A stretch of 10,723 nucleotides of DNA from Actinomycetes bacterium (GTDB taxonomy: Bacteria; Actinomycetota; Actinomycetes; Mycobacteriales; Mycobacteriaceae): assembly GCA_022600695.1 (NCBI GenBank), contig JAHZJY010000244.1, forward strand, positions 1 to 10,723, given 5' to 3'. Position 1 is the stretch's first letter, and each line of letters starts with the position of its first letter. A program made the position numbers and the translations under genes. Under the pieces are notes generated by a model that did not search any database, had not been told where the DNA came from, and worked only from the letters and a program-made list of their open reading frames with translations. This document shows positions 1,620 to 5,053 of this stretch, piece after piece.

Positions 1620-3929
1620 CTAGACGGGAATCTCGAGCACAACGTCACCGGGCCTCTTATCCGGGCGCAGACCGCGCCAACTGGAATGCCGAAGCCGGCC
1701 CGCGGGCGTTATCTCGCCGTAGCGCACCTCGCCGACCAACTCTGGCCGAACGAAGGTGACACCCTTGGCCTCCCTACCGAGAAGTGCAGGGTGGAAGGGG
1801 GATTCACTGGTTCGCAGCGGCGACAAGATGGATTCGAGCGTGGCCCGGTCCTGCTCGGTGAAACCCGTTCCAACCCGGCCGATGAACCGTAGGCCACCCG
1901 CATCGGGAATACCGAGCAACAGCGCACCAATACCGCCACCCCCTCCATTCTTCCCGGCGCACCAACCGCCGATCACCGCATCCTGGGTATTCCAGTTCTT
2001 GTCCTTGACCCACGTCGGAGAACGGCGTCCGGGCCGGTAAGTGGAATCCCACTTCTTGGCTACCACGCCCTCCCACCGTCGCCTGCGGGAAAAAGCCAAG
2101 GCCTCGGCACCGTCACCGTCGATCAGTTTCGGAACAGTCAAACCCGTTGCTGAAGATAATGTTTCAAGCAATCGACGCCGGTCGCGGTACGTCACCGTCA
2201 CCAGCGAGCGACCATCCAGATGGAGCATGTCGAACGCCCAGAACTCGACTTCAGCACCGCGTGTGCGACTCTGCAACTCGCTGAAACTCGGCACACCGCG
2301 GGAATCGATCGCCACCACCTCACCATCGAGGATGACGTGGTGATCGTCCAGATCGGCGGCAAGGGCCTGCAATTGCGGATACTCCGCCGTCACGTCGCGG
2401 CCGTTGCGGGTTTGCAGCCGCAGGCGACCCGCATCAGCTTCGACCAGCATCCGGTAACCGTCGAACTTGCCCTCGAACGCCCATTGCTCAGCGGTGAAGC
2501 CGTCCACCGATCCGGCAGTCGCCAGCATCGGCGCGAAGTCCCGCACATGAACCGCCGAACGGTCTTCCATCCGGTGGGCCAGCCACTGGTCCCCGTCGGT
2601 CTGGATCAATGCGAACCGTCCGTTGAGTCGACCGCCGTGCAGATCGACGACCACCTGGCCGCCGTGGCCGCCCGCACCGTGCGGGGCGACGTGGAACTTC
2701 TCGGTCTCATAGCTGCCGGCGTCCCAGATGGTCACGGTCCCGGCGCCGTACTCGCCCGCCGGGATGGCGCCCTCGAAGGTGGCGTATTCCAACGGGTGAT
2801 CCTCGGTTCGCACCGCCAGGCGGTTCTTCGATGGGGAGTCGGGCAGGTTCTTCGGCACCGCCCAAGACACCAGCACACCGTCGCGTTCAAGCCGGAAGTC
2901 GTAGTGCAACCGCCGGGCGCGGTGTTCCTGGATGACGAAGCGGTTGTTGTCGCCGGTGACCTGCCTCGTGGACACCGGGGGTACAGGTTCGGGTGTCTTG
3001 GTCGCATCCCGCATGCCACGGTAGGCGCTGAGTCGGTCGGGGGGTGCCTTCTTCGAGGGCACGTCCAATCCGGCCAGGAGGTCGCCGTCGCACTGAACTC
3101 TGGCCAGGACCTCGTCGTACCGCAACTGCCGGAGGCCCGGATCGGCGATCTCATCCCAGGTTCGCGGCGCGGCGACGGTCGGATGTGGCCGGCCGCGAAG
3201 CGAATACGGCGCGATGGTGGTCTTCGCCGCGTTGTTCTGGCTCCAGTCCAGAAGGACCTTGCCGGCCCGCAGGCTTTTGGTCATGGTCGCGGTGACCAAC
3301 GCCGGCAGGCTCCCCTCGAGTTCTGCGGCCACCCGCCGGGCCAGCGCCACCGCCGCGGCGCTGCCGACAGGTTCGGCCAGCGGCGCGTACAAGTGCAGGC
3401 CCTTGCTCCCACTGGTGAGCGGATAGACCCTCACGCCGATGTCGTCCATCAACTCGCGCACGGCGTGAGCCACCTCGGCCAGCTGCGCCATCCCCACCCC
3501 CTCCCCGGGATCGAGGTCGAACACCAGCCGGTCAGCCGGGCCGGGCTTACCGTCCGGCCCGAAACGCCATTGCGGTACATGCACTTCCAGCGCAGCCTGC
3601 TGGGCGATCCAGGCCAACCCGACCGGACTGTCGATGATCGGGTAGACGGTGGCGCCGGCACGATGCACCATGACGCCGCGGCTCAACCAGTCCGGAGCCG
3701 ACTTCGCCAGGCGCTTCTCGAAGAACGACGCCTGCTCGACTCCGTTCGGCCAACGTTTTCGGGTGGCCGGCCGCCCGGTGACATACGGCAGCATCACTCC
3801 GGCGATGCTCGTGTAGTACCGGAACACGTCGGCCTTGGTGGTTCCGGTGGCCGGATAGAGGACCTTGTCGGGGTTGCTCAAGGTGACCATCGGTCCCGTC
3901 GTCGCGCCCGGCGGCCACACCTCGATCAC
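1620..3929 (-). CDS. ligD: Multifunctional NHEJ DNA ligase LigD (polymerase-phosphoesterase-ligase)
   Basis: This is the ATP-dependent ligase that Ku recruits to repair double-strand breaks by end joining. It has 769 residues, close to M. tuberculosis LigD. Domain order is the mycobacterial one. The primase-polymerase domain (about 15-290) has metal-binding D138 and D140 (VFDLDPGEG) and a third acidic site at D228 (LLDWSQNN). The 3'-phosphoesterase (about 325-460) carries H336, H342 and D344. The nucleotidyltransferase ligase (about 465-769) has nucleophile K488 in EGKFDGYR, and the C-terminal motif WRGLRPDK. All catalytic sites look intact. The GTG at 3929 is preceded by TACGTT ending six bases upstream, so a leaderless start is plausible. 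An alternative is the ATG at residue 14, just before the conserved VTLSNPDKVLYP. A run of five glycines (662-666) sits in a linker of the ligase domain. It is divergent from the small gene and ku. Confidence 0.97.
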   Translation of the reverse strand: MIEVWPPGATTGPMVTLSNPDKVLYPATGTTKADVFRYYTSIAGVMLPYVTGRPATRKRWPNGVEQASFFEKRLAKSAPDWLSRGVMVHRAGATVYPIIDSPVGLAWIAQQAALEVHVPQWRFGPDGKPGPADRLVFDLDPGEGVGMAQLAEVAHAVRELMDDIGVRVYPLTSGSKGLHLYAPLAEPVGSAAAVALARRVAAELEGSLPALVTATMTKSLRAGKVLLDWSQNNAAKTTIAPYSLRGRPHPTVAAPRTWDEIADPGLRQLRYDEVLARVQCDGDLLAGLDVPSKKAPPDRLSAYRGMRDATKTPEPVPPVSTRQVTGDNNRFVIQEHRARRLHYDFRLERDGVLVSWAVPKNLPDSPSKNRLAVRTEDHPLEYATFEGAIPAGEYGAGTVTIWDAGSYETEKFHVAPHGAGGHGGQVVVDLHGGRLNGRFALIQTDGDQWLAHRMEDRSAVHVRDFAPMLATAGSVDGFTAEQWAFEGKFDGYRMLVEADAGRLRLQTRNGRDVTAEYPQLQALAADLDDHHVILDGEVVAIDSRGVPSFSELQSRTRGAEVEFWAFDMLHLDGRSLVTVTYRDRRRLLETLSSATGLTVPKLIDGDGAEALAFSRRRRWEGVVAKKWDSTYRPGRRSPTWVKDKNWNTQDAVIGGWCAGKNGGGGGIGALLLGIPDAGGLRFIGRVGTGFTEQDRATLESILSPLRTSESPFHPALLGREAKGVTFVRPELVGEVRYGEITPAGRLRHSSWRGLRPDKRPGDVVLEIPV

Positions 3930-3970
3930 CGCTCCAACGTATTACGCGCTGCTAGGTTGGAACGGTGATC
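3924..3970. promoter_or_regulatory. Mirror-image divergent leaderless promoters of ligD and the small secreted gene
   Basis: An imperfect inverted repeat has 18-base arms (3924-3941 and 3953-3970) around an 11-base spacer. Read outwards, the arms are TACGTTGGAGCGGTGATC towards ligD and TAGGTTGGAACGGTGATC towards the small gene, identical at 16 of 18 positions. Each arm holds a TANNNT -10 (3936-3941 on -, 3953-3958 on +), then six bases, then the GTG start codon (3929 on -, 3965 on +). Both transcripts would be leaderless. No good -35 is visible on either side. The arms could also bind a dimeric regulator. Confidence 0.65.
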
Positions 3971-4186
3971 AGGATTTCCGTGGCCGGCATACTCGCGGTC
4001 GCGGTGCTCACCGCACCCGCTGCGGGCGCCGATCCGGCGGACCTCGAGCCGTATTGCACGGGCGGGCAGGAGCCCACCACCGGTGAATGCCTACCCCAAC
4101 CCGGCGATGTCTATACCGACAATGCCCCCGGCGCGGACCCGAACGTTCCCCTGGGCGTCGACCCGGAGTCCGTCCCCGCGGTCTGA
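3965..4186 (+). CDS. Small secreted protein between ligD and ku
   Basis: This is a 73-residue protein with a clear export signal: a short basic start (MIRIS), a hydrophobic core to about residue 18, and an AxA site (A20-G21-A22) for signal peptidase I before D23. The mature part is about 51 residues, acidic and proline/glycine-rich, with two cysteines (C31, C42) that could form a disulfide. No lipobox is seen. The GTG start has no Shine-Dalgarno but sits six bases after TAGGTT (3953-3958), which suggests a leaderless mRNA. It points the same way as ku and ends 27 bases before it, so the two may be co-transcribed. I do not recognise a named family. A role in repair is unlikely for an exported protein; the link to ku may be transcription only. 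Confidence 0.75.
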   Translation: MIRISVAGILAVAVLTAPAAGADPADLEPYCTGGQEPTTGECLPQPGDVYTDNAPGADPNVPLGVDPESVPAV

Positions 4187-4200: not shown

Positions 4201-4213
4201 GCATACTGGACTC

Positions 4214-5053
4214 ATGCGGGCCATCTGGAAGGGTTCGATCGCCTTCGGCCTGGTCAACGTCCCGGTGAAGGTATACAGCGCCACCGAGGACCACGACCTC
4301 AAGTTCCACCAGGTGCACGCGAAGGACAACGGCCGCATCCGATATCGACGGGTCTGCGACGAGTGCGGCGAGATCGTGGAGTACCGCGATATCGCGAAGG
4401 CCTACGAGTCCGACACCGGCCAGACCGTAGTGATCACCGAGGAGGACATCGCCACTCTGCCCGAAGAGCACAGCCGCGAGATCGAGGTACTGGAGTTCGT
4501 CCCGGCGGGCGATATCGATCCACTGCTGTACGACCGTAGCTACTATCTGGAGCCGGATGGCAAATCGCCGAAATCCTATGTGCTGCTTGCCAAAGCGCTC
4601 AGCGAGACCGACCGGGTCGCGATCGTGCACTTCGCGCTGCGCAACAAGACCAGGCTGGCCGCACTACGGGTGAGAACATTCTCCGGTCGCAACGTGCTGG
4701 TGGTGCACACGCTGCTGTGGCCCGACGAGGTCCGCGTACCAGACTTTCCAAGCCTGCAGACCGATGTCGAGATACGGGCCACTGAGCTCACGATGGCCGG
4801 CCAGGTGCTGGAGTCGATGGCCGACGACTTCCACCCGGAGAGGTACACCGATACCTATCAGCAGCAGCTCGCCGAGCTCGTCGAGTCCAAGCTGACCGGC
4901 GGACACGCGTTCACGAACCCCGAGTCGACAGCCTCGCCCGACGAAACCGAGGACGTCTCCGATCTGTTGGCCCGGCTGGAGGCCAGCGTCCGGCGGCGCC
5001 GCGAGCATGCCGCCGAAACAGCCCCGGGCAGGACCATCCCGACCAAAAAGTAG
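4214..5053 (+). CDS. ku: Ku, NHEJ DNA-end-binding protein
   Basis: Bacterial Ku forms a homodimeric ring that threads onto double-strand-break ends, protects them and recruits LigD. The 279 residues match the usual length (M. tuberculosis Ku is about 273). The start MRAIWKGSIAFGLVNVPVK is the family signature, and the Ku core beta-barrel fills about 1-250. A CxxC pair (C48, C51) is present. The C-terminal tail, basic near RRRR at 260-263 and ending in lysines, is short, as in mycobacterial Ku, and the adjacent region is thought to contact LigD. There is no Shine-Dalgarno before the ATG; CATACT (4202-4207) ends six bases upstream and could be a -10 for a leaderless transcript, with read-through from the small gene also possible. 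Lying next to divergent ligD, it completes a two-component NHEJ system. Confidence 0.98.
   Translation: MRAIWKGSIAFGLVNVPVKVYSATEDHDLKFHQVHAKDNGRIRYRRVCDECGEIVEYRDIAKAYESDTGQTVVITEEDIATLPEEHSREIEVLEFVPAGDIDPLLYDRSYYLEPDGKSPKSYVLLAKALSETDRVAIVHFALRNKTRLAALRVRTFSGRNVLVVHTLLWPDEVRVPDFPSLQTDVEIRATELTMAGQVLESMADDFHPERYTDTYQQQLAELVESKLTGGHAFTNPESTASPDETEDVSDLLARLEASVRRRREHAAETAPGRTIPTKK

Follow-up and report, generated by a model that had tools for sequence, protein, structure and literature searches.

The ligD gene and its divergent neighbor, a small secreted-type gene, very probably start from two separate, overlapping SigA-type leaderless promoters that stand back to back. The pair is real and conserved but of an ordinary kind, and it had been over-read as a mirror: judging from the related loci compared here, the mirror image that the two promoters form in this genome is not maintained. 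The window (the whole stretch of DNA analysed, 10,723 nucleotides) belongs to a 2.8-Mb assembly made up of 401 contigs.

A repeat search placed the inverted repeat at 3924..3970, with two arms of 18 nt (3924-3941 and 3953-3970) that are complementary at 16 of 18 positions (89%) and are separated by 11 nt, as an earlier note on this DNA had described. The minus-strand arm reads TACGTT-GGAGCG-GTG-ATC and is the start of ligD at 3929, and the plus-strand arm reads TAGGTT-GGAACG-GTG-ATC and is the start of a 73-codon open reading frame at 3965. Both readings confirmed the composition that the note had given for each arm (a -10 hexamer, a six-base gap, and GTG followed by ATC), and the distance of 11 bases between the -10 hexamers, at 3936..3941 (minus strand, TACGTT) for ligD and 3953..3958 (plus strand, TAGGTT) for its neighbor, was likewise correct. 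Each arm is thus a mycobacterial leaderless-type promoter joined to a start codon (TAnnnT, six bases, RTG), with the hexamer at the 6 to 7 bases before the start by which such promoters are recognized. TAnnnT-N6-RTG occurs at three sites in the window, two of which are the repeat arms. From the hexamer spacing, the GTG codons at 3929 (minus) and 3965 (plus) are predicted to coincide with the 5' ends of the two transcripts, which places the predicted starts 36 bp apart, each with its own -10 hexamer. An E. coli-type sigma-70 scan returned no sites in the window and is uninformative for mycobacteria.

Mycobacterial promoters have been described as carrying TANNNT with no -35 consensus, with about a quarter of genes leaderless (PMC3898074; PMC6448022), and an RTG at the 5' end has been reported as necessary and sufficient for leaderless initiation (PMC4633059). 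The two units found here resemble such promoters in their TANNNT -10, the lack of a -35 consensus, and an RTG where the transcript is predicted to begin. They differ from the usual case in that two of them, with predicted starts, are arranged back to back, their hexamers 11 bp apart.

For the comparison, 150 ligD loci (the window, 80 relatives, 29 loci from a wider search, and 40 regions picked by hand, mostly from the upper part of the matches listed in that search) were reduced to 118 distinct upstreams. The loci lean towards close relatives, are not a random sample, and form part of the genomes with a match, which number at least 393 of 396. The 80 relatives listed comprise 3 Rhodococcus and otherwise sequences labelled as mycobacteria or as actinobacterial assemblies. 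L001 and L083, which are the window itself, and L002, another place in the genome of the window, were left out. Two different ligD loci, L004 and L042, came from one MAG (isolate bin19), which points either to a second ligD copy or to mixing of genomes in the bin.

The ligD gene (1620..3929, minus strand, 769 aa, GTG at the predicted transcription start) matched the Pfam domains LigD_Prim-Pol, LigD_N, and DNA_ligase_A_M/C and the NCBIfam models NF007210 and TIGR02776, both above the cut-off; its product has polymerase, phosphoesterase, and ligase domains. An in-frame TAnnnT-N5..8-RTG was present at ligD in 104 of the 118 distinct upstreams (89 with N6, 101 with N6 or N7), while dinucleotide shuffles of the same 118 averaged 2.2 such units and never had more than 6. 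TAnnnT was the best of 64 letter triples at this place in the 118 upstreams. Since these loci share ancestry and further triples are frequent there as well (ACnnnG in 73/118, GGnnnT in 62/118), the 104 units are not 104 independent events. The unit was absent from 14 of the 118, including the three Rhodococcus loci. Among 48 loci chosen solely by the upstream sequence GSGTAATAC, position 6 of the hexamer was T in 47, and the two bases preceding it varied.

The GTG start of ligD is supported by the conservation of the N-terminus that it adds, by an excess of diversity at third codon positions, and by the rarity of methionine at residue 14. In 43 paired loci sharing the same 48-nt N-terminal extension, W5, P6, G12, and V15 were invariant, residues 1 to 13 were mostly conserved with a third-position excess, and the diversity at the three codon positions over codons 4 to 16 was 0.135, 0.169, and 0.370. 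A start at the ATG of residue 14, which the earlier note had named as counting against its own reading, was not borne out and was rejected, since the N-terminus is conserved and methionine occurs there in 2 of the 43 loci. In many relatives (L013, L018, L071, and others) the last three bases of the ligD spacer form an in-frame RTG, which gives a tandem RTG-GTG; the window has GCG directly before the ligD GTG at the place where many relatives have RTG. In relatives with the extra RTG, ligD could start one codon earlier.

The partner in the window (3965..4186, plus strand, GTG at the predicted transcription start) encodes a 73-aa protein whose N-terminus looks by eye like a signal peptide and which gave no Pfam or NCBIfam match. 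Its TAGGTT hexamer is preceded by TGC, a TGN extended -10; in M. tuberculosis this element is reported for 7% of TANNNT promoters and goes with higher activity (PMC3898074). Besides the ligD unit, a divergent TAnnnT-N5..8-RTG opening a reading frame was found in 60 of the 118 distinct ligD upstreams, 45 of these 60 partners having TG where an extended -10 would lie, and a divergent TAnnnT-N5..8-RTG was likewise present in 45 of the 48 loci chosen solely by GSGTAATAC. Judged from their translations, the partners at the 60 paired loci comprise 50 small secreted-type proteins, 4 PfkB-type kinases, and 6 mannitol-dehydrogenase-type proteins, with one example of each of the latter two kinds verified with Pfam. 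At the 10 loci with a kinase or mannitol-dehydrogenase-type partner the gap between the hexamers was 19 or more.

A further partner is ku. In the window ku is the gene after the 73-codon frame and has a leaderless-type promoter and start codon of its own, CATACT-GGACTC-ATG (4202..4216, plus strand), which is conserved in relatives: CATACT-N5..7-ATG was found at 46 of the 54 loci in which ku was located (it was not found in 27 of the 81). In L077 ligD is directly divergent from ku, with the hexamers 12 bp apart (L077:2440-2490). We also observed ku at most 110 nt from the ligD anchor in L058, L064, L065, L067, L068, L069, and L070. Elsewhere in the window, the DUF222 reading frame at 207 has TAGAAT-N6-ATG (195-209), a further leaderless-type start. 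The partner changes with the lineage (small secreted-type, PfkB-type kinase, mannitol dehydrogenase, ku) and ligD retains a promoter of this type. That so varied a set of genes starts back to back with ligD favors a compact leaderless architecture over a special switch between ligD and a secreted-protein gene.

Paired back-to-back promoter/start units exceed chance. Among the 118 distinct upstreams the gap between the hexamers was 11 in 35 loci and 10 to 12 in 42. The pattern CAY-N6-AnnnTA-N7..14-TAnnnT-N6-RTG gave 18 matches in 532,692 bases of 78 sequences (of the 81 made up by the 80 relatives and the window, the three Rhodococcus loci being left out), all of them at the ligD start, and none in 20 first-order Markov simulations of those 78 sequences. 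As the sequences are related, the 18 matches are not 18 independent events.

The symmetry of the repeat is a different matter. The earlier note had taken it as functional, as a bidirectional switch, a site for a dimeric regulator, or the relic of a duplicated start region. Of the 60 paired loci, 33 had two N6 spacers and a gap of 7 to 12 and entered the arm comparison (27 were dropped), and conservation was measured in 21 of the 28 loci with a gap of 11 and both spacers N6 (7 were dropped for having less than 600 nt of ligD); in both sets TA..T and RTG were fixed by selection, and their conservation there is no evidence. The two arms of one locus agreed at 10.27 of 18 positions on average and arms from different loci at 10.15, a value that 26.6% of permutations reached, and the six-base spacers matched at 1.94 positions within a locus versus 1.95 between loci. 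Even the first base of the start codon was often unequal, ligD having GTG in 33 of 33 loci and the partner ATG in 20 and GTG in 13. The arms follow different consensuses, TAC[CG][GT]T-GRGRTG-GTGAAT on the ligD side versus TACCGT-GGACCA-RTG on the partner side (33 loci). In the 21 loci the pairwise identity was 0.66 and 0.68 in the spacers and 0.67 and 0.54 in the hexamer middles, with 0.66 at the four-fold sites of ligD.

Within this set the window stands out: its 16 of 18 is the highest of the 33 loci, with 14 in second place, and a match of 16 is attained by 0.09% of cross-locus pairs. This looks like about what is expected for the best of a few dozen loci, a one-off. Among its nearest relatives with both spacers N6, compared over 180 ligD residues, the arms matched at 6 (L008), 13 (L019), 10 (L010), 9 (L023), and 8 (L003) of 18 positions, and all the N6/N6 loci besides the window among the best 26 of 60 by nearness of ligD gave 6 to 13 of 18, the identities of L113, L115, L118, L119, L122, and L133 resting on 19 to 21 residues. 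The arms therefore do diverge in close relatives, an outcome against which the note had set its own reading, and the symmetry of the whole repeat is not conserved outside the promoter and start-codon letters. Whatever symmetry this window has beyond the shared architecture is best attributed to chance.

These comparisons bear on three readings that give the repeat itself a role. A dimeric regulator that sits on the symmetric arms and turns both genes off or on together would suit the 16/18 symmetry of the window, and an operator overlapping both promoters would be effective; it is nevertheless very improbable, given that the arms do not co-vary within loci, that the spacers are as variable as four-fold sites, and that the loci nearest by ligD keep as few as 6 to 13 matches. 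In addition, the tuberculosis proteins are reported in PMC8151990 as lower after mitomycin C. Descent from a duplicated start region, to which the likeness of the arms in the window lends some color, is hardly credible when each arm holds its own distinct consensus across 33 loci, the same design recurs with unrelated partners, and the nearest relatives are less symmetric. Equally hard to credit is a repeat that acts as a hairpin, either as a cruciform or in RNA. The single-strand DNA fold of the window has a z of -4.86, but with RNA parameters, among 46 loci, z was -3 or below in two, the window and L013, and -2 or below in 6, with a median of -1.0; neither promoter, if leaderless, would give a transcript that spans both arms, and the window had no Rfam match at the gathering score. 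The separate leaderless promoters, on the other hand, would account for the repeat on their own: two outward-facing TAnnnT/RTG units necessarily yield an inverted repeat at TA...T and RTG, with the other matches fortuitous. The comparison bears out two leaderless-looking genes whose divergent promoters overlap with a conserved geometry; it does not support the functional symmetry proposed in the earlier note, with arms no more alike within a locus than across loci and a conserved middle that is itself asymmetric.

That middle, the 11 bp between the -10 hexamers (3942..3952), reads GCAGCGCGTAA on the minus strand of the window and NCAGCGGGTAA in relatives. On the ligD strand NCAGCGGGTAA has a pairwise identity of 0.92 in the 21 loci, versus 0.66 at four-fold sites, is not symmetric, and is the most conserved variable stretch of the region. 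Its right end, GGGTAA, accompanies ligD: in L015, where the gap is 24, GGGTAA stays at the ligD hexamer and the TGN-compatible triplet stays with the partner, and in L049 and L051 it stays with ligD though the partner is a PfkB-type kinase. On sequence grounds, GGGTAA beside the ligD -10 appears to be under tighter constraint than a plain TAnnnT promoter needs. It is conceivable, if on balance unlikely, that the middle is a regulator site or a special promoter element and that the pair is regulated by a route other than symmetry. Set against this, the left end of NCAGCGGGTAA reads as the partner's TGN extended -10 in 45 of 60 loci, L014 (gap 7) is without GGGTAA, and the window itself has GCGTAA. 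The narrower proposal that the all but invariant, asymmetric CAGCGGGTAA between the hexamers is a dedicated control element setting the balance of ligD and the small gene, for example as a place where a regulator binds or as an extended -10 of non-canonical type, is doubtful.

A scan of 31 genomes found CAGYGGGTAATAC in 10 of them, at 13 places in all, with 1 match for the reversed control pattern; 6 of the places were at ligD, all followed by a hexamer with T, and the 7 elsewhere were without the position-6 T. GGGTAATAC was rejected as a regulon motif, there being no sign of one in the 31 genomes, though the 7 non-ligD matches of CAGYGGGTAATAC do exceed the 1 of the reversed control. SigF was rejected as well. 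The M. smegmatis SigF promoters are given as GTTT-N14-19-GGGTA (PMC4694148), and the likeness beside the ligD -10 of relatives is confined to GGGTA: GTTT stood 14 to 19 bases before it in 0 of 48 loci, three of its four letters were found at that distance in 1 of 48 (control offsets, mean 3.3), and the window has GCGTA.

If the two leaderless promoters work as their sequences suggest, RNA polymerase would recognize each TAnnnT and begin transcription at the start codon about seven bases further downstream, so that the mRNA of each gene would begin with GTG and need no Shine-Dalgarno site. Each -10 lies about 24 to 29 bases upstream of the opposite start, and the footprint of a bound polymerase reaches that far. 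Given the 11 bp between the hexamers and the 36 bp between the predicted starts, a polymerase bound to either promoter should keep the opposite one from being used; the earlier claim that two polymerases cannot occupy both -10s is better put as their being unlikely to do so together, which we infer from the geometry. Strong firing of one gene could then hold down the other, and at low activity there would be barely any mutual effect. The outcome would depend on firing rates, because competition in E. coli appears only when one side is raised: in the account of PMC12825309, the five bidirectional promoters examined were too weakly active at basal level for polymerases to compete, and raising one side led to strong repression of the opposing transcript. 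The same account defines bidirectional promoters by a shared -10, the common distances between starts being 10, 18, or 23 bp, and sets them apart from separate divergent promoters, which it describes as not affected in this way. The ligD pair resembles bidirectional promoters in its pseudo-symmetric DNA, its divergent starts, and the steric exclusion expected from its geometry, but it has separate rather than shared or overlapping -10s and predicted starts 36 bp apart, and it is not a member of that class. Another parallel is found among the closely juxtaposed divergent promoters reported in M. tuberculosis, such as prpD (Rv1130)/Rv1129c, where both transcripts are leaderless (PMC3898074); leaderlessness is predicted here, and the genes are different. 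In the open-access papers searched, we found neither a description of a back-to-back leaderless start for ligD nor a mapped ligD 5' end.

Taken as a whole, the comparison indicates conserved leaderless-type starts for ligD, for ku, and for the small gene between them, and a back-to-back start of ligD whose partner gene varies among mycobacterial lineages. It also illustrates how leaderless architecture can produce a striking inverted repeat as a side effect. If CAGCGGGTAA were indeed a control element, one mycobacterial lineage would possess a compact regulated switch for end joining. If the polymerases do compete, expression of the end-joining ligase would be tied to the promoter of an unrelated small secreted-type protein.
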